Source: a marine gamma proteobacterium HTCC2080
GTDB taxonomy: Bacteria; Pseudomonadota; Gammaproteobacteria; Pseudomonadales; Halieaceae
Length of the DNA stretch: 64,000 nt
NCBI GenBank assembly: GCA_000169115.1
Contig: AAVV01000008.1
Span: 124,001 to 188,000 of the forward strand
Direction of reading: 5' to 3'
The notes under the pieces were generated by a model that searched no databases, had not been told where the DNA came from, and was given only the letters and a program-made list of their open reading frames with translations. Every line of letters starts with the position of its first letter. The stretch's first letter is position 1. Shown here piece after piece: positions 6,454 to 64,000 of this stretch. The position numbers and the translations under genes are program-made.

Positions 6454-8274
6454 ATGTTGGAAAAAATTCGAAAGATTAAAGAGATTGCTCGAGTTTTTGG
6501 CGAGATGCGTCATTTATTGCCGGCTTTAAATTTTAAAATGCCTTCACACGAGGAAGCGATTTCGGTGGGGAGCGCCTTCGAAGATGCCGTCGCCGCCCAC
6601 CCTGACCGAACCATGCTGTTTTTTGAAGGGCGCGAGTGGACTTATAGTGAGTTCAATCAATGGGTCAATCGTTTCGCTCGAGTTCTGCAGGCGCGCGGTG
6701 TAACGCGGGGCGACAGTGTTGCGTTACTGATGGAGAACCGAGCTGAATTTATTCTTAGTTTGCTAGCGACACTCAAGCTAGGTGCAAGTTGCGCGTTGAT
6801 CAATAACAGCCTAACCGGAACAGGTTTGGTGCATTGTGTGCAAGCAGCCGGAGCTAAGCACATCATCGTTGGCGATGAGCGTACCTCGGTCATTGAGGCA
6901 AGTCGCGAGGCCTTAGCCCTGAGCGATTTTGGCGCCTATCTTTGGTGCTCTGACTCTGGCACCTCGACCTGTCCTGATTGGTGTGTAGATCTCAAGGCTG
7001 AAATGGCTGATCAACGTGTTGAAAACATTCCCATCACTCGAGAAATCACGGCCGGAGAGGTGGCGTTCTATATTTATACCTCGGGTACCACTGGCCTCCC
7101 TAAGGCGGCGATTATGCTGCATCGAAAAGCGTTGGCGGCTAGCACCGTGTTGGGTCGGCTGGGCTTTCGAGTAAAACCCTCTGATCGTCTGTACCTGTGT
7201 TTGCCCATTTACCATATCACCGGCCTAGGACCTGGCTTGTTGGCGTTTATATTGTCGGGCGGTTCGGTATTTTTGCGTCGCCAATTTTCAGCCTCAAAAT
7301 TTTGGTCTGAAGTTCAGCAGTTTAAAACGAACAGCTTTATCTACGTCGGTGAGTTGTGCCGATACTTAAATCAGCAGCCCGAACATCCCCAAGAGAAAAA
7401 TAACCCATTGGAAAAAATGCTGGGGAACGGTTTAAGGCCCGATGTCTGGGATGCTTTTAAAACACGTTTCGAAGTCGCGCGAATTTGTGAGATCTATGGC
7501 AGCAGCGAGGGCAATGTGTCCTTTGCAAATTTCTTTAATAAAGATAAAACGATTGGTGCAACATTTGCCAAGGTGGCACTGGTTGCTTACGACCAGGAAA
7601 ATGATGAAATCCTCCGCAATGAGGAGGGTCACTGTACTGAGGTGCCTGCGGGTACGCCAGGGCTGTTACTAGGCGAAATAACAAGCGACTACGCCTTCGA
7701 CGGTTATACCAACAAGGACGCGACAGGGAAGAAAGTTGTTCATGACGTGTTGAAAGCCGGCGATCAGTGGTTTGATACTGGCGATCTTATTCGAGAAATC
7801 GATGTGGGTTTCGCATTTGGAATTCGCCACTTTCAGTTCGTCGACAGAACGGGGGATACTTTCCGATGGCGGTCAGAAAACGTGTCGACCAATGAAGTTG
7901 CTGAGGTGCTCAATCAACACCCCCAGGTTCATCTCTCTAATGTGTACGGCGTCGAGGTGCCTGGTTGTGAGGGTAAAGCGGGAATGGTTGCACTGGCCGT
8001 CGATTCACCGGACACTTTCGATATGACAGGGTTCAGCAGGTTGGTTGATGCAGAGCTGCCTGTATATGCGCGCCCCTTGTTTATCCGCTTACAGGCTTCC
8101 CTGGAGACGACGGGTACCTTTAAACTGGTAAAAACTGAGTTAAGAGCGCAAAGCTTTCACTTAGATCAAGTAGGTCAAGACGCCATTTATGTGCGGCCCC
8201 CCAAGGCAGAAAGTTATCAGCGCCTTGATGACAATTTTTATCAAAGCCTTTGTTCCGGCACCGCAGGGTACTAA
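6454..8274 (+). CDS. Long-chain/very-long-chain acyl-CoA synthetase (FadD6/FATP type)
   Basis: A 606-residue ANL-superfamily enzyme that activates a fatty or other carboxylic acid to its CoA thioester with ATP. The P-loop-like motif YTSGTTGLPK lies near residue 207, an EIYGSSEGN adenine-binding segment near 345, and GDLIREID marks the hinge region. The start (MLEKIRKIKEIARVFGEMRH) and the motif FRWRSENVSTNEVA match the FATP/very-long-chain branch rather than E. coli FadD. The neighbours (GST-like, ABM, DsbA-fold, acyl-CoA dehydrogenase) suggest a catabolic route that begins with this activation. Natural substrate unknown. Confidence 0.88.
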   Translation: MLEKIRKIKEIARVFGEMRHLLPALNFKMPSHEEAISVGSAFEDAVAAHPDRTMLFFEGREWTYSEFNQWVNRFARVLQARGVTRGDSVALLMENRAEFILSLLATLKLGASCALINNSLTGTGLVHCVQAAGAKHIIVGDERTSVIEASREALALSDFGAYLWCSDSGTSTCPDWCVDLKAEMADQRVENIPITREITAGEVAFYIYTSGTTGLPKAAIMLHRKALAASTVLGRLGFRVKPSDRLYLCLPIYHITGLGPGLLAFILSGGSVFLRRQFSASKFWSEVQQFKTNSFIYVGELCRYLNQQPEHPQEKNNPLEKMLGNGLRPDVWDAFKTRFEVARICEIYGSSEGNVSFANFFNKDKTIGATFAKVALVAYDQENDEILRNEEGHCTEVPAGTPGLLLGEITSDYAFDGYTNKDATGKKVVHDVLKAGDQWFDTGDLIREIDVGFAFGIRHFQFVDRTGDTFRWRSENVSTNEVAEVLNQHPQVHLSNVYGVEVPGCEGKAGMVALAVDSPDTFDMTGFSRLVDAELPVYARPLFIRLQASLETTGTFKLVKTELRAQSFHLDQVGQDAIYVRPPKAESYQRLDDNFYQSLCSGTAGY

Positions 8275-58026: not shown

Positions 58027-58899
58027 TTAGGTATTGCGATCAAGAAGCGCCCCGCGAAGCTCGCGAGCTTTGTCCTGAATTTTTTCAGCATTGGCTGGAC
58101 CCATGCGCATAAGTTGTTTTTGCAGGGCGGGTAGGGTTTCTAAGCTATCGTCTTCATAGCGCCAATTCGCTTCGTCTTTGAATAAGCGTGCCTCGAGGTC
58201 TGTGGCGGGTGCGAGCAAAATCATATTGAGGGCACCCAGTGCGGCGTCATCAAACGTGGCGTCACCGTAACCAAGGCCTGCCCATACCTCTTCAAGTACA
58301 ACCGAAAGTAGCCCATAGAGGGTGACTGTTGCCGCTACGTTGATCCCGGCCACAGTTGTGGCGAGACCGTCATAGCGCTCAAACCCCGCAGGATCCAAGG
58401 TCACGGCAAGACCGTCATCTTGAAACGGAAATTTTACACCGGGACGGCCCACGGGTAGCAGCTTGTAGGGCACGCTACCCATGCGAAGGTTGTCAACGAT
58501 GGCAACACCCCGTTCGAGGCCGTTACCGCTCATGGCAAATTGTTGCCCAAGCATGCCACTGTTTAGCTGCGGCAAAAATTCGCTAATGACTGCGTCGCTT
58601 TCCGACAGCGTTACTGTAGGGGCTTCGATTATAGTTTCAACGGCTTCAGCGGGAGCGGCTTCAGGCTCAAGAGCGGGCTCGCTGGTAGGCACCGATGGCT
58701 GCTCAATGACAACGACTTCTGGAGTGACAACCGGTGGAGCGTTTGCCAGCACTGCAGGCTCTTCTGGCGTTGCAGCTGGCTGCTCCTGCATGAACCCCCA
58801 ATATAAAACGCCACACAGAACGACAAAGCCCACCCCTGCGAGAATGATTCCAGCGTAGGGCTTTTGTGAGGGTAAGGATTGGTCGGTTTCTGTCGTCAT
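58027..58899 (-). CDS. DUF3014 domain membrane-anchored protein
   Basis: A 290-residue protein: a single N-terminal membrane anchor (AGIILAGVGFVVLCGVLYWG), a Pro/Ala/Glu-rich linker (about 40-100), then the DUF3014 domain with NLRMGSVPYKLLPVGRPG and LEEVWAGLGYGDATF. It would have its domain in the periplasm. Function unknown. It is convergent with recX and not part of its transcript. Confidence 0.8.
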   Translation of the reverse strand: MTTETDQSLPSQKPYAGIILAGVGFVVLCGVLYWGFMQEQPAATPEEPAVLANAPPVVTPEVVVIEQPSVPTSEPALEPEAAPAEAVETIIEAPTVTLSESDAVISEFLPQLNSGMLGQQFAMSGNGLERGVAIVDNLRMGSVPYKLLPVGRPGVKFPFQDDGLAVTLDPAGFERYDGLATTVAGINVAATVTLYGLLSVVLEEVWAGLGYGDATFDDAALGALNMILLAPATDLEARLFKDEANWRYEDDSLETLPALQKQLMRMGPANAEKIQDKARELRGALLDRNT

Positions 58900-59153: not shown

Positions 59154-59795
59154 TCAGGTTGGGGCCTGTGCGGGCCGGTCGGCTTTCGCGTAGGCGAATC
59201 GACGCCCGTTTTTGACTGCGTGGTAACTGTCCAAACCGCAAACCGTTTGCGTATTGAGGTCGACGAGATTTACCGAGCCATCGTCTCGAATTCCAGAGGC
59301 AGGACATTGCAGCCATTGCACGCCCGCGATCAACAAATGCGTTTGATTCACGGCGAGCACCTGGTGTTCGATGAGTGAGAGCCCGAGCTTCACGGGTGAT
59401 TCTTTAACGGCTGGCGCAGCAAATTCGGGGATCCATTCTTCAGTGAGTTCAGTCGCGTCAAACTCGGAGTCGCTTCGGGGGTAGCGCGCTGAGGTTTGAT
59501 GGGCGGCCGGTATCATGGGCTCGGTAATATGGTTGAGGGTGAATACCTCAGTTGCCAGTATGTTATCGAGGGTATGACGTTCAGTGCCCTCTGGGCAGGG
59601 CCTTACGATTAATCCCAGCACAGGTGGGCTGGCACCAATATGAAAGACGCCAGAGAAAACCGCGAGGTTGCTTTGTCCCTGTCTGTCGGCAGTCCCCACC
59701 AGCAAAGCGGGTTTAAACCCAGCAATACCATTAATCAAATTGCCTCGATACCGGCTGGGTAATGCTCCGAGCTCTTCTGCGGTCCAGTTGCTCAT
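59154..59795 (-). CDS. Flavin-reductase-like domain protein
   Basis: A 213-residue FMN-binding split-barrel protein (NLINGIAGFKPALLVGTADR, VFSGVFHIGASPPVLGLIV, TVEVFTLNHI-like middle and a final SYHAVKNGRRFAYAK). Its family reduces flavins with NAD(P)H or acts as the reductase of two-component monooxygenases. It follows the DCC gene by three bases and probably belongs to one transcript with it. Confidence 0.82.
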   Translation of the reverse strand: MSNWTAEELGALPSRYRGNLINGIAGFKPALLVGTADRQGQSNLAVFSGVFHIGASPPVLGLIVRPCPEGTERHTLDNILATEVFTLNHITEPMIPAAHQTSARYPRSDSEFDATELTEEWIPEFAAPAVKESPVKLGLSLIEHQVLAVNQTHLLIAGVQWLQCPASGIRDDGSVNLVDLNTQTVCGLDSYHAVKNGRRFAYAKADRPAQAPT

Positions 59796-59798
59796 AAG

Positions 59799-60140
59799 TT
59801 ACGGCTCCGCCTTGTAGAGTCGGTCGTAGCGCCAGCGCGCCCATCGATTGTAGGCGAGCTCCACAATGGGACGAATGAGAGGCCAGGTCATCCACCGCCA
59901 AAGCACCCCGTAACGGGTGTGCTGCCAAGCGGCAACGTTGGCCTCAATTCCGGTGACCATTTGCCCATCGCGCTCCAAGTGGAGCACGCGTAGTAACTGG
60001 TCTTTGTCGACCGGGCTGTTCGGCTCACTCAGCCCATGAATATCGACTAACTGTAGCTGTTCATCTTTGATGACGCGCAGTTTATCCATCTCCTTAACGC
60101 AGAGAGGGCACTGGCCGTCGTAATAGAGCGTATCTGGCAT
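59799..60140 (-). CDS. DCC-family thiol-disulfide oxidoreductase (DUF393)
   Basis: A 113-residue protein beginning MPDTLYYDGQCPLCVKEMDKL, the DxxCPxC motif of the DCC (YuxK) family. The Pro-Xaa-Cys active site suggests disulfide chemistry, but no substrate is known. The C-terminal end is Arg-rich with an amphipathic helix. It sits 60 bases downstream of apbE and three bases upstream of the flavin reductase gene. Confidence 0.82.
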   Translation of the reverse strand: MPDTLYYDGQCPLCVKEMDKLRVIKDEQLQLVDIHGLSEPNSPVDKDQLLRVLHLERDGQMVTGIEANVAAWQHTRYGVLWRWMTWPLIRPIVELAYNRWARWRYDRLYKAEP

Positions 60141-60200
60141 GATGGGGAACCAAATGCAGTAATGGATATTCAGTTACGGCCAATGTCGTTGGCTGGATGA

Positions 60201-61118
60201 TCAGGGGGCGAGGGGACCTAAGCATTTCCCCAATGGATCAATGCTCAGCCAGGGCAGCCCAGCCTCATTGAGCCATGCGGTGGCATTGTTGGCAATGTTC
60301 AGGCAGGCAACGGTAGCGACCGCGCCCGCTGTGAGACAACTGTCTGAAATGACACTGACGCTTGCGGCGCCCTCGACTGGCCACCCCGATTGGGGGTTAA
60401 GGAAGTGGCTGTAGCGTCGGCTGTTAATTTCAATAAAGCGTTGGTAGCTGCCGCTGGTGGCCAGGGCACAATTGCTGAGTTCAACCGTGACCAAGGTCTT
60501 CGATGGAGCTTCAGGGTCGCTGATTCCAATATGCCAAGGTGCCCCTGAGGCTTTACTGCCTACGGCCACCACATCCCCGGCAAGTTCCACCAGCGCGTGA
60601 TTGAAACCGTGGTCCCGCAAAGATTGCGCGGCCTTGTCTGCGCCATATTCTTTCACGACACCGCCGAAGTCCAATTCCATCCCAGCATCGCTCAACCCAA
60701 CACCTTTTACGCTTTGTTTCACCTTAGACCAGCCCACTTTCGCTAGCAGATTTGGCAGTTCGCTGACATCGCCTTGCTGTCCCCGAGAAAAATCCCAGAC
60801 TTGCCTCAGAACGCCTGCCGTGGGGTCAAATAAACCATGGCTTTGTTCCCACAAACGCTCACAAAACGTCAGTAATGCCAGGGTCTCTTCATCAACAGGG
60901 GTTAACTTTCCGGTGCCGGCAAGACGGTTAATTTGGCTGATTAAACTGTTTTCGCGATAACGGCTGTACCGCGCTTCGAGATCACGCAACAGCCTCTCGA
61001 TCGTCTGACAAGCCGCTCGCGCACTGACGGTATGGGCCGCTGCGTGTTCTATAACCAGCCGAGCGGGGCCGCCCATCACTTTGAAGGCATGCTCTGTAAC
61101 GGTGAGCGGGTCAGTCAA
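60201..61118 (-). CDS. apbE: FAD:protein FMN transferase (ApbE)
   Basis: An ApbE-family flavin transferase of about 305 residues: LEARYSRYRENSLISQIN, LFDPTAGVL, LDFGGVVKEYGADKAA (metal and FAD site), HFLNPQSGWPVEG and CLTAGAVATVA. It normally attaches FMN to a Thr of a partner protein in the periplasm. I use the TTG at 61118, which lies next to the stop of the DUF3570 gene; a TTG at 61136 is possible. No lipobox or signal peptide is evident from either start, which is unusual for a periplasmic enzyme. Confidence 0.87.
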   Translation of the reverse strand: MTDPLTVTEHAFKVMGGPARLVIEHAAAHTVSARAACQTIERLLRDLEARYSRYRENSLISQINRLAGTGKLTPVDEETLALLTFCERLWEQSHGLFDPTAGVLRQVWDFSRGQQGDVSELPNLLAKVGWSKVKQSVKGVGLSDAGMELDFGGVVKEYGADKAAQSLRDHGFNHALVELAGDVVAVGSKASGAPWHIGISDPEAPSKTLVTVELSNCALATSGSYQRFIEINSRRYSHFLNPQSGWPVEGAASVSVISDSCLTAGAVATVACLNIANNATAWLNEAGLPWLSIDPLGKCLGPLAP

Positions 61119-62301
61119 AGCGCCAGCTGATGCCAATGGTGGCGCGCCAAAAATTCACTAGGGCGGGAGCCGCCTCTCCGTCGTATAACCCCCAATCGTT
61201 ATCACTTTCATAACGCTCGAGCTGTCCTTCCATTTGCCATTCGCCAATTTGAATCGAGCTTCTCAGCCCAACGGTTAAGGCGCCATAGGACGACAGTCTA
61301 AAATCATCGGCATAAAATTCTTCGTCTAAATCAGCGATGACGCTGAAAAAATCCGCCTCTCTTTGGCTGTAATAGCGCAGGTAAGGTGTAAGTGCGAAGC
61401 GTTCAAAATTTTGATGCCAGGCCACCTCGGCAGTATGGGAGTCAGTGCCCCAATCATCAGAGTAATAGCGGTAGTCGATTTGCAGGGCGCCTTGAGCCTC
61501 TGGAAAGAACTTTCGATAACCACCGCTAAGCGCCGTACGGCCGTGTTCATCGGGGCGCGCATCAAACAGCTTGTAAGGGTCAGACAGATAGCCTTCGCTA
61601 AAGGTATAACCCAAGCCAATACGCACAATAGCGGTGCTAGACAGAATCTGGCTGACGCCAAAGTAGACCGAGGCCGTGTCAATGTCTTCACTGTCGATAA
61701 ATACGGGGATGTTGCCGTTTACGGGTTCGACCCTGTCGTTAGAGGTGCTTGCCGAAGCCGACCAGGTTCTTGAATTGTCACTGCTGTTCCAAGCCACGTC
61801 GAATGCGAGGGCCAAGGCTTCGTAGTCGTCTTCCTTGGAGTGCGTCACATTAAACCCGGCGTTGCCATCGGCCCAGAAGTAACGCGTGGTGGCACCCACT
61901 TCAACGCGATTATCGTAAATGCTCGCACCGCTCATTATCACGCCGGGCTGGCCATCGATTTGAGTGCCGACGAACCATGGCGATGCGCCGCTCATCGAGT
62001 CGTTTTGAACATCGACAGCGACAGACCAATTCGAGCCTACGGGCGCCTCGATCCAGAGCTGAGTGACATCAATGTCGTAACGGCCGCGAGCTCCGGCAAT
62101 CAAGTTATCCGTAGACAGGTTATCTTCGCTGTAATGGCTGTAGCGTAATCCTACCTCGGTGAACTCCGGAGGCGCATCGGCGTAGGTGTTTTGGTAGGCG
62201 GGCAGGGCAGCCACAGCGGCGCCGAGGGTTCGCACCAATGGTGACTGCCTAATGGTGGATATGGAATGCGCGCCTTTTACACCGGGCTCAATTACAGCCA
62301 C
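61111..62301 (-). CDS. DUF3570 outer-membrane beta-barrel protein
   Basis: A protein of about 396 residues of the DUF3570 family, rich in alternating strands and aromatic girdle residues throughout, with FVDSEDID-like turns, GLGYTFSEGYLSDPYK and a C-terminal aromatic strand ISWRF. The GTG at 62301 is preferred (VAVIEPGVKG, close to the MAVTE start of homologues), with GGAGG five bases upstream inside the DUF4266 gene. It overlaps both neighbours. It probably forms an outer-membrane channel or receptor; its function is not known. Confidence 0.85.
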   Translation of the reverse strand: MAVIEPGVKGAHSISTIRQSPLVRTLGAAVAALPAYQNTYADAPPEFTEVGLRYSHYSEDNLSTDNLIAGARGRYDIDVTQLWIEAPVGSNWSVAVDVQNDSMSGASPWFVGTQIDGQPGVIMSGASIYDNRVEVGATTRYFWADGNAGFNVTHSKEDDYEALALAFDVAWNSSDNSRTWSASASTSNDRVEPVNGNIPVFIDSEDIDTASVYFGVSQILSSTAIVRIGLGYTFSEGYLSDPYKLFDARPDEHGRTALSGGYRKFFPEAQGALQIDYRYYSDDWGTDSHTAEVAWHQNFERFALTPYLRYYSQREADFFSVIADLDEEFYADDFRLSSYGALTVGLRSSIQIGEWQMEGQLERYESDNDWGLYDGEAAPALVNFWRATIGISWRFD

Positions 62302-62554
62302 AACCACCTCCTGCAGCACCGTTACCCCCAGAGGATGCCTCTTTGCTGGTATAAACGTGACCCTTAAATTTAGCTTCGCGGGTGCTCGATTGCCATTGCA
62401 TAGCCTCCTCAGCGAGGTAGCCGCGCTCCCACGCCGCCACGGGTTCGAGACCCGAACAACCGGTTATTCCAATAAGAACAAAAAGACAAAAAAACCGGTA
62501 GGTTTTTAGAGTTTTATTCTTCCAGAAGCTGCAGAATTTCAGCGCGTAGTGCAT
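62288..62554 (-). CDS. DUF4266 small lipoprotein with C-terminal GGGCGCN tail
   Basis: An 88-residue precursor. A basic N-terminus and hydrophobic segment end in the lipobox GITGC (C33), giving a 56-residue mature lipoprotein: LEPVAAWERGYLAEEAMQW, then the conserved HVYTSKEASSGG and the tail AAGGGCGCN. That end is a DUF4266 hallmark. The ATG at 62554 has AGGAG six bases upstream, within the 3' end of the thioredoxin gene; a second ATG at 62560 is directly against it. The Gly codons near its end also form the ribosome binding site of the next gene. Confidence 0.85.
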   Translation of the reverse strand: MHYALKFCSFWKNKTLKTYRFFCLFVLIGITGCSGLEPVAAWERGYLAEEAMQWQSSTREAKFKGHVYTSKEASSGGNGAAGGGCGCN

Positions 62555-63041
62555 CCTCATCTCCTCGTTTAAACCCGACGTGAACGGCCCTAACGCGTCC
62601 TTCGCGATCGATTAAGTAACCCGACGGCATGCCGTTGACGGCGTAGGCTTTCGGTACGTTGCCCTCGGTGTCAATGGTAACGGGATACGTGACGGGATAC
62701 CGCGCCAAGAAGTCCCACGCATCCTCCTCAACGACATCAACACTGACTGCCATGACTTTGAGCCCCATTGGTGCGAGCTCCTGATAGATTTCGTCAAGTG
62801 CGGGTAGAGACAAACGGCAGGGGCCACACCACGAGGCCCAGAAATCGAGGTAGGTGACGGATCCTTTGTAATTAGCCAGTGAAATAACGCCTTCGGCATT
62901 GGCAATGGCAGGCAGGCTGAATTCCGGCGCCGCTATGGCGTCTTGTTTTGTTGTGGGGTCGCTTTGTACACCAACTGAAAACAGGGCGCAGAGTAAAAAA
63001 GCGACAAACGTTTTCATTGGGTAGGTAGAGAGCTTGCGCAT
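62514..63041 (-). CDS. Periplasmic TlpA/ResA-like thioredoxin
   Basis: A 175-residue thioredoxin-fold protein with an export signal (MKTFVAFLLCALFSVGVQS). The active site is CGPC (residues 72-75 in WASWCGPCRLS) and the cis-Pro is P139 in GMPSG. It should reduce or exchange disulfides in the periplasm. The ATG at 63041 is chosen because GGGGA lies eight bases upstream; the frame opens at 63068. It leads the cassette with DUF4266, DUF3570 and apbE, and its last 41 bases overlap the DUF4266 gene. Confidence 0.9.
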   Translation of the reverse strand: MRKLSTYPMKTFVAFLLCALFSVGVQSDPTTKQDAIAAPEFSLPAIANAEGVISLANYKGSVTYLDFWASWCGPCRLSLPALDEIYQELAPMGLKVMAVSVDVVEEDAWDFLARYPVTYPVTIDTEGNVPKAYAVNGMPSGYLIDREGRVRAVHVGFKRGDEDALRAEILQLLEE

Positions 63042-63519
63042 TTGAGGTCCCCTAGTAGTAAAGCGCACAGTTTACAGCATTGAACACCATGTCCTCTGTA
63101 AATCTCTATACGTTTTTGCCGCGCACAGAGTGAGACTCAACGACAGATATAGGAGCCCATAGCATCGTTACTGTGTATTCCCCGAAATTGTTGTGGGGTT
63201 TGTTTGCAAAGTGTGTTGGCTCCACGACGCTCAACCAGAGGCCCACAACTCTTTCGGGTTGGGTAGTCAATCCGCTCTACTGGTGGTTTAGAGCACTCGC
63301 TATATTTTGTGGCTGACGCTTGGACAGTGGTAGTCTAGGCGCCAAGGTTGAGGGCATTTATGCTGAATTAACCCAGTGGACGTAGTCGGCACGAGGTCTG
63401 CGGGCTCACTCGCTCAGGGCCCGTAGTTAAAGCCACTTCAGTGCAGTACGGCACAGTGGTGTTATGGTCGTGCGGCGTTAGTCGTGCGGCGTTAGTAAAG
63501 GTGTGTGGTGGAGAACTTA
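63042..63519. other. Divergent intergenic region with a 14-base tandem repeat
   Basis: About 480 bases between the thioredoxin cassette (minus) and the pilin gene (plus). It holds the promoters of both. A 14-base tandem duplication lies at 63467-63494. The open frame from 63441 is in another frame to the pilin gene and is not supported. Confidence 0.45.
63467..63494. repeat. Tandem duplication of a 14-base unit
   Basis: GTCGTGCGGCGTTA occurs twice head to tail without mismatch. It ends 26 bases before the probable start of the pilin gene, so it lies in its leader. Confidence 0.9.
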
Positions 63520-64000
63520 TTGAAAACAAGCACCAAAGGTTTCACCTTGGTAGAGTTATTGGTGGCTCTCGTTGTGATGGCGATACTGGTTGCTATTGCG
63601 GCTCCTGCCTTTCAGAACCTAATCAAAGGGCAGCGGCTAAAAGCCGTGGTAGAAACGACACTATCTGATCTTCAGGTTGCCCGCACAGAAGCCCTCACGC
63701 TCGGGCTCAGTGGCACGGTAACCGTCACATTTAATGAAGGTGTGTCTTGGAACTACACTATAGTGAGTTCTGGAAGCACGCCCACGGTAGCCAGGACCTA
63801 TAATGATTACGGTGGCGGTGTAACCGCGGCAGTGACCGGATGGAATAAGGCGGGGGGGACGGCCGCTTTTACGATTACAACTGTGAGAAGCCTAGACGCT
63901 GCTGGGACCGGTTCCATTACCTTCACCCTCGGCAGTCTAAGTGCTAAAATCGAGCGAAATTTGCTAGGCGGAGTTTTTGTGTGTTCACCTAATGGCGACC
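63520..64000 (+). CDS. GspH/FimT-type minor pseudopilin, 3' end off the window
   Basis: A plus-strand frame from a TTG at 63520, open to the right edge (160 codons). It has the class III type IV prepilin leader KTSTKGFTLVELLVALVVM, with Gly-Phe cleavage and Glu5, and a long hydrophobic helix ending PAFQNLIKGQRL. The following SDLQVARTEALTLG is typical of the GspH/FimT minor pilins. GGTGGAG lies six bases before the TTG; in-frame GTG codons at 63505 and 63508 are alternatives. It is probably the first gene of a minor-pilin cluster that lies beyond the window. Confidence 0.85.
   Translation, partial: MKTSTKGFTLVELLVALVVMAILVAIAAPAFQNLIKGQRLKAVVETTLSDLQVARTEALTLGLSGTVTVTFNEGVSWNYTIVSSGSTPTVARTYNDYGGGVTAAVTGWNKAGGTAAFTITTVRSLDAAGTGSITFTLGSLSAKIERNLLGGVFVCSPNGD

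Follow-up and report, generated by a model that had tools for sequence, protein, structure and literature searches.

A conserved thioredoxin/DUF4266/DUF3570/ApbE cassette in a marine gammaproteobacterium: a predicted flavin-bearing outer-membrane barrel and a candidate thiol-to-flavin electron conduit

A group of six minus-strand genes is found in a 64,000-nucleotide stretch of the genome of the marine gammaproteobacterium HTCC2080 (contig AAVV01000008.1, positions 124,001 to 188,000; hereafter the window), a member of the Luminiphilus group of the Halieaceae. The genes encode a secreted thioredoxin, a DUF4266 lipoprotein, a DUF3570 protein, an ApbE flavin transferase, a DCC protein, and a flavin reductase (Table 1). 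The six open reading frames (ORFs) had been named in a sequence-only reading of the window, and each product scored above the Pfam cut-off for its named family; for ApbE, the score was 231.9 bits against a cut-off of 25.6. The CGPC motif of the thioredoxin and the 56-residue mature lipoprotein with its Gly/Cys tail were likewise found as described. The best NCBIfam match of the thioredoxin is ResA, below the ResA cut-off. The first four genes had been described as overlapping or touching: the thioredoxin and DUF4266 genes share 47 bases, and the DUF3570 and ApbE genes share 8 or 26 bases, depending on whether ApbE begins at TTG 61118 or TTG 61136. DUF3570 has no ATG start, and its GTG/TTG candidates lie at 62319, 62307, 62301, 62238, 62235, and 62214; it overlaps the DUF4266 gene only if one of the first three is used. 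ApbE is separated from DCC by 60 bases, and DCC from the flavin reductase by 3.

Table 1. Features of the cassette (window coordinates)
Feature	Position	Strand	Basis or remark
TlpA/ResA-like thioredoxin, secreted, 175 aa	62514..63041	-	Redoxin PF08534 1.4e-22; signal read by eye
Thioredoxin CGPC (within WASWCGPC)	62817-62828	-
DUF4266 lipoprotein	62288..62560	-	PF14086 5.3e-20
DUF4266 mature part, 56 aa, lipobox Cys as residue 1, ends GGGCGCN	62291-62458	-
DUF4266 CGC codons	62294-62302	-	C-terminus CGCN
DUF3570, predicted 16-strand outer-membrane barrel, start codon uncertain	61111..62319	-	PF12094 3e-53, AlphaFold, fold matches
DUF3570 mature part as modelled	61114-62178	-
Candidate flavinylation site 1, SGAS in DSMSGAS (D60, acceptor S66, mature numbering)	61981..61992	-	motif match
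Candidate flavinylation site 2, SGAS (acceptor S86), no Asp at -3	61921..61932	-	motif match
ApbE flavin transferase, no signal peptide, TTG 61118 or TTG 61136	60201..61118	-	PF02424 1.2e-68
ApbE KE closing DFGGVVKE	60648-60671	-
ApbE Gly in place of catalytic Asp, within CLTAGAVAT	60312-60338	-
DCC1-like thiol oxidoreductase, no signal peptide seen	59799..60140	-	PF04134 1.1e-19
Flavin reductase-like protein, no signal peptide seen	59154..59795	-	Flavin_Reduct PF01613 7.7e-15

Gene neighborhoods were surveyed in three sets. The barrel gene was traced in 22 Luminiphilus/Halieaceae assemblies (64 to 94% identical), a scan that reaches close relatives only; a class survey of 184 genomes supplied 69 regions fetched around DUF4266 or DUF3570 matches; and a held-out set of 24 regions was taken from a phylum survey of 299 genomes, with predictions recorded beforehand. 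About a quarter of the class genomes contain each family (DUF4266 in 46 and DUF3570 in 50 of 184). DUF4266 is followed by DUF3570 in 60 of 62 class cases, and a thioredoxin gene lies within 4 kb of DUF4266 in 50 of 62. One held-out region, whose match fell short of the family cut-off, was empty; the 23 others were scored, and DUF4266 preceded DUF3570 in all of them and a thioredoxin gene was present in 21. These counts rule out a chance grouping of unrelated genes and uphold the earlier proposal of a conserved module, the constant core of which is thioredoxin, DUF4266, and DUF3570. A tree of DUF3570 (68 rows, after thinning of the Luminiphilus rows) splits the family into branch A, which includes the window protein and occurs in a stand-alone operon, and branch B, which occurs in a long conserved locus that includes an HZS-alpha-domain lipoprotein gene; held-out loci were assigned to a branch by locus content rather than by tree. 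ApbE lies on the same strand within 5.5 kb of DUF4266 in only 21 of 62 class cases, because branch B usually lacks a neighboring ApbE and, within branch A, ApbE is sometimes encoded away from the module. The refuting condition set in the earlier reading, that DUF4266 and DUF3570 genes lie mostly away from ApbE and TlpA, thus gives a mixed outcome: the thioredoxin was borne out as a neighbor and ApbE largely was not. The DCC and flavin reductase genes, which had also been counted as part of the system, are instead a genus-level addition and are rejected as core parts: they adjoin the module in the window and at 7 of 22 further Luminiphilus loci (L006 is uninformative, its sequence stopping within ApbE), and profiles grown from the window proteins, which very distant relatives could escape, detected them in 0 of 69 class and 0 of 24 held-out regions. 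DsbD is encoded in or directly after the cassette at two loci, L072 and L077; in the genome that carries the window, the sole DsbD_TM match is on another contig, and the window cluster itself has none.

The four-gene core is a member of a published module. Clusters of ApbE, DUF3570, thioredoxin, and DUF4266 genes were catalogued by Meheust et al. 2021 (PMC8238504), and according to its main text the ApbE of Chlorobium luteolum flavinylates the DUF3570 protein of that organism at two [S/T]GA[S/T] sites, DUF4266 carries a CXC at its C-terminus, 316 such clusters lack DsbD while many others contain it, and 25 DUF3570 clusters include a VIT1 iron transporter. The window cassette matches this description in the association of the four families, two [S/T]GA[S/T] sites, a CXC tail, and the absence of DsbD. 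The system had been called uncharacterized from the sequence, which does not hold, DUF3570 being a demonstrated ApbE substrate in Chlorobium; the accompanying suggestion that ApbE adds covalent flavin to a cassette protein is plausible, as is that of a thioredoxin acting on the lipoprotein cysteines. The observation itself is thus confirmed and its interpretation partly supported. Meheust et al. 2021 was the one paper found for DUF4266, DUF3570, PF12094, or PF14086 in the literature searched, which covered accessible texts without figures, supplements, or subscription papers; its follow-up of 2024 is PMC11334425. A term search of the main text of PMC8238504 returned "barrel" and "porin" zero times and "outer membrane" once, for siderophore transporters, and neither a signal-less ApbE, an active-site swap, a surface placement, nor a CGC/flavin co-loss was found in the parts consulted. 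Within the literature searched, the barrel, the surface sites, the joint loss of CGC and flavin site, and the altered ApbE seem undescribed.

AlphaFold modelling of the mature DUF3570 chain with an 80-sequence alignment gave a 16-strand barrel (pLDDT 94.7, pTM 0.89), and the best fold matches among solved structures are outer-membrane barrels, in support of the outer-membrane barrel that had been predicted. The alignment comprised the 83 ORFs longer than 300 aa minus L018 (undetermined base), L021 (broken frame), and L100 (904-aa frame). The model has an even number of strands, with long loops at one end (16, 22, 2, 13, 14, 4, 25, and 16 residues) and short turns at the other (3, 2, 4, 2, 4, 3, and 2). 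The termini of outer-membrane barrels lie in the periplasm, and the long-loop end should therefore face outside. No solved relative of DUF3570 or DUF4266 was identified by sequence at E 0.01, and the window barrel sequence contains no cysteine.

Both SGAS sequences (mature residues 63-66 and 83-86) fall on the predicted cell-surface side, where they form the two feet of one long loop, L2: site 1, D60-S-M-S-G-A-S66, lies where strand 3 ends, and site 2, S83-G-A-S86, just before strand 4. In the model, strands 67-72 and 78-82, read as a hairpin, lie between the two sites, and the acceptor serines S66 and S86 should therefore be near neighbors. Site 1 fits D-x-x-[S/T]-G-A-[S/T], given as the flavinylation motif in the consulted part of a review. 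Positions conserved at ≥85% are concentrated at the same end of the barrel; 24 of 26 fall in outer strand halves or outer loops, against a background of 222 of 355 positions, and within strands alone the split is 13 outer to 2 inner (of 110 and 106 positions, respectively). By the alternation rule, 12 of these 15 strand positions face the lumen, and conserved charged residues (D60, R91, E116, D118, R237, D241, R268, and D292) line the mouth. Outer loops are usually the variable part of an outer-membrane barrel, and conservation of the outer half therefore points to chemistry at the surface mouth. We regard it as very probable that DUF3570 is a flavinylated barrel, and the model makes it likely that the flavins sit at its cell-surface mouth.

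The DUF4266 lipoprotein would supply a dithiol. CGC is present in all 85 DUF4266 genes found and in 23 of 23 held-out genes, a count that covers profile-found genes and so favors intact tails. The +2 residue of the window protein is Ser, and Asp follows the lipid Cys in none of the 81 scored DUF4266 proteins (70 of these rows make up the row set A2). Absence of Asp at +2 fits an outer-membrane destination under the lipoprotein sorting rule, and outer-membrane sorting is therefore expected. Modelled alone, the protein shows two helices but no confident fold (pLDDT 69.6, pTM 0.35); its last ten residues have pLDDT below 50, and the CGC is therefore probably carried on a flexible arm.

Presence of the CGC gene tracks the flavin site. 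Among the 80 barrels scored, all 75 whose locus includes a CGC gene keep the acceptor motif. Two barrels with no CGC gene nearby, L114 (genome G086) and L122 (G005), also keep the motif, and their genomes encode DUF4266 elsewhere; in three more, L117, L118, and L119, the genome has no DUF4266 match and the barrel has lost the motif. L118 and L119 belong to the same genus, so this co-loss amounts to two events and no more than suggests a tie between dithiol and flavin. Shorter DUF3570 fragments were left out of the count, including those in L022, L023, L092, L107, L115, L116, and L120, as was the G119 fragment in L121, from a genome without DUF4266. L117 itself (6520-7839) is an apparent natural fusion, in which a lipobox and a DUF4266-like N-terminus are joined to a DUF3570 barrel with neither CGC nor flavin site; the N-terminus matches the profile made here with E 9.6e-5, and Pfam sees DUF3570 only. 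In the held-out set, 22 of 23 barrels conform to that motif pattern or carry a strict [S/T]GA[S/T], the exception being L141 (DAVSNAS). Electron exchange through contact between the CGC and the flavins is, on balance, slightly favored.

The ApbE of the cassette differs from canonical periplasmic ApbEs. Ahead of its domain, an in-frame stop allows the window protein no more than 25 residues, and a hydrophobicity scan found there no hydrophobic stretch and neither a canonical periplasmic ApbE signal nor a lipoprotein signal. A hydrophobic N-terminus is likewise present in 0 of 16 held-out ApbE genes from operons without an HZS-alpha locus. The value of 2.22 that L020, a signal-less row, has in the hydrophobicity scan stems from a reading frame that extends back into DUF3570. 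In all 58 branch-A ApbEs the catalytic Mg-binding Asp position is Gly, and 57 of 58 have Glu in place of the Gly that follows the active-site Lys, with the catalytic Ser and His retained in 58 of 58. In a comparison group of ten, made up of nine rows from branch B or L110 together with the second ApbE that HTCC2080 encodes, the Asp is kept in nine and the Gly after Lys in ten; L141 was placed with the signal-bearing ApbEs by branch, though no signal was seen. Alignment of a branch-A ApbE (L079) to PDB 7esa, which we take to be Listeria FmnB, puts Gly on Asp301 and Glu directly after Lys190 (our numbering). Asp301 of FmnB (Vibrio Asp285) binds both Mg ions, and Ala at the metal-binding residues, Asp301 among them, greatly reduced or abolished activity, according to the part of PMC8906456 consulted. 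The paired Asp-to-Gly and Gly-to-Glu changes look like a metal-binding acid that has moved.

A search with this subfamily gave 28 strong matches in 28 of the 184 class genomes, all at least 322 bits, the next match scoring 219. The subfamily is present in 25 of 26 branch-A genomes (24 placed by tree, G080 and G156 by operon content) and in 3 of 158 others; the Fisher value for this co-occurrence ignores relatedness. Counting G140 (L110) as branch A gives 25 of 27; it is a long branch beside branch A with a signal-bearing, Asp-containing ApbE. Seven subfamily copies away from any DUF3570 were fetched, with KE in seven and Gly, by pattern, in six. Signal-less Asp-to-Gly ApbE genes were also seen at L150, L151, and L152, in genomes G031, G052, and G173, which have no branch-A DUF3570. 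The second ApbE of the HTCC2080 genome (L125:8822-9871) is a lipoprotein type that keeps the Asp, next to genes resembling those for Nqr subunits. The signal-less enzyme makes flavinylation of the barrel before its export somewhat the better-supported order.

Three other known systems invite comparison. Chain B of Mtr (6r2q) is among the many barrels that match the DUF3570 model, and many others match it better; unlike the MtrCAB porin-cytochrome conduit, the window system has 16 strands and flavins and thiols in place of heme, and no multiheme protein was noticed among the cassette's neighbors, which were read by eye. Like Listeria FmnB as described in PMC8906456, the cassette would pair an ApbE-family enzyme with covalent FMN on an extracytosolic protein; FmnB, however, keeps Asp301, has a substrate of another fold, and acts in an organism with no outer membrane. 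Klebsiella has a cytosolic ApbE that also lacks a signal peptide, but its substrate, as summarized in the review PMC12052999, is a soluble fumarate reductase modified in the cytoplasm, whereas the window substrate would be an outer-membrane barrel. A fitness paper on Azotobacter was considered as a source of a cassette phenotype and rejected, since the ApbE in the portion consulted concerns Rnf.

We propose a cytoplasmic ApbE that loads the DUF3570 precursor with FMN on one or two of its serines; the precursor would then be secreted and folded into the 16-strand barrel. Two flavins would thereby be held close together on the feet of loop L2, at the conserved polar vestibule of the surface mouth. 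The Gly-rich arm of DUF4266 would reach into the barrel with its CGC dithiol and exchange electrons with the flavins, and the secreted CGPC thioredoxin, supplied by DsbD, would keep that dithiol reduced, so that electrons would flow outward to an extracellular acceptor, which could be ferric iron, a quinone, or O2. The outward direction we put at even odds. Taken whole, a heme-free thiol-to-flavin conduit across the outer membrane, with the barrel flavinylated before export, is the reading we favor, tentatively and at somewhat less than an even chance. Its fullest form, in which electrons pass from a dithiol arm to two surface-loop FMNs, a moved-acid ApbE acts in the cytoplasm, and a covalent flavoprotein with pre-attached cofactor passes through Sec, is doubtful. 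If true, the proposal would add a heme-free type of electron conduit in the outer membrane, together with an exported protein whose covalent cofactor is attached before export; the surface flavins, CGC co-loss, and altered ApbE make the function of these systems, which occur in 50 of 184 sampled class genomes, testable.

Several points weigh against this proposal. The case for this organism is computational, not experimental, and nothing in the literature consulted establishes that a polypeptide carrying FMN can pass the Sec channel. The cell-surface side of the DUF3570 loops was assigned by the usual topology rule rather than from coordinates, and the DUF4266 arm would have to enter the barrel lumen to span the distance from periplasm to flavin. 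Site 2 lacks the usual Asp, and two strict sites are present in only 24 of 80 barrels. At 13 of 22 Luminiphilus loci no thioredoxin gene adjoins the module; at least two of the 13 (L014 and L015) have too little upstream sequence to judge. The Asp needed in FmnB is lost from branch-A ApbE, and an exclusive pairing of this ApbE with branch-A DUF3570 is ruled out by G031, G052, and G173, which hold the subfamily alone, and by G048, which holds the barrel alone.

These points lend themselves to other explanations. The lost Asp could mean that branch-A ApbE is inactive or transfers something else, any flavin on the barrel being added by another ApbE; the uniform Gly, the effect of Ala substitution in FmnB, and the second, lipoprotein ApbE in the same genome all fit this. 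Retention of Ser and His throughout, gain of a Glu beside the Lys, and co-occurrence with the branch-A barrel argue the other way, as would the active DUF3570-linked ApbE in the text of PMC8238504 if it belongs to this subfamily, and we hold the explanation improbable. To the same small degree we credit flavinylation of the barrel in the periplasm, the canonical place for ApbE activity, by an enzyme that arrives there through an unrecognized route. The review PMC12052999, in the part consulted, has most bacterial and archaeal ApbEs seemingly secreted; the short N-termini without a hydrophobic stretch, in the window and in all 16 held-out genes, are at odds with that route.

The remaining alternatives concern where the electrons go. 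In an outer-membrane thiol oxidase, the flavins would pass electrons from the CGC to O2 and create envelope disulfides, the thioredoxin being either a client or a partner. Sulfhydryl oxidases place a flavin next to a dithiol in this way, and CGC/flavin co-loss fits either direction; CGPC, however, is the motif of reducing thioredoxins. With DsbD, the supplier of reductant, joined to the cassette at L072 and L077 and in many clusters described in PMC8238504, such an oxidase is unlikely. Slightly less so, though still unlikely, is a ferric reductase or aid to metal uptake, in which surface flavins would reduce Fe(III), or the CGC would bind a metal moved by the barrel, and redox would serve import. 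The conserved charged residues at the mouth could bind metal, and the clusters with VIT1 in PMC8238504 agree with such a role; against it, no metal transporter was found among ten scanned representatives of recurrent neighbor clusters (a subset of all clusters), and none was noticed beside the window cassette on reading its neighbors by eye.

Branch B belongs to what looks like a separate outer-membrane redox system. Its conserved locus runs, in order, HZS-alpha-domain lipoprotein, SH3/OMP (outer-membrane protein), OMP, thioredoxin, DUF4266, DUF3570, and three genes, the last encoding a TPR protein. The locus has about ten genes: the HZS-alpha lipoprotein mostly carries two CxxCH motifs (27 loci), SH3/OMP and OMP genes occur at 29 and 31 loci, two unnamed genes precede the TPR gene after DUF3570, and a divergent gene with one CxxCH is often present (17). 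It was seen in L055-L064, L066, L067, L070, L071, L073-L076, L080, L083, L085, L087, L090, L092, L098, L112, and L119. A literature search on this locus, at the level of the result listing, returned nothing relevant. Site 1 in branch B is mostly SSAS; an initial reading that the flavin site is lost there was withdrawn, as D60, A65, and the acceptor Ser are kept and mainly the Gly is changed. GAS is present in the class rows L063, L071, L074, and L099 and in held-out L127-L129. A nearby ApbE with a hydrophobic N-terminus occurs at seven branch-B loci (L062, L066, L071, L073, L074, L083, and L087); the single held-out ApbE near an HZS-alpha locus, that of L141, lacks the signal peptide that had been predicted for branch B, so the prediction was not confirmed there (0 of 1).

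Other genes were seen around the module. At Luminiphilus loci without the thioredoxin gene, the upstream opposite strand encodes proteins with CxxCH plus Ig/FN3 or PSD1/PSCyt3-type domains (L011:6246-7403 and L016:2333-7506), the PSCyt3 match being just under its cut-off. Six branch-A loci (L078, L086, L095, L096, L101, and L108) have next to the module a gene for a DUF1501 protein and another, unnamed, for a 514-aa lipoprotein-like product. In the window, the cassette is followed immediately downstream by a minus-strand gene for a DUF3014 protein (58027-58899), and a divergent run of type IV pilin-like genes, which we take to be minor pilins from their GFTLVELL/GFSLTELM-type N-termini, lies on its other side (window 63500-64000 and L124:7506-11650).

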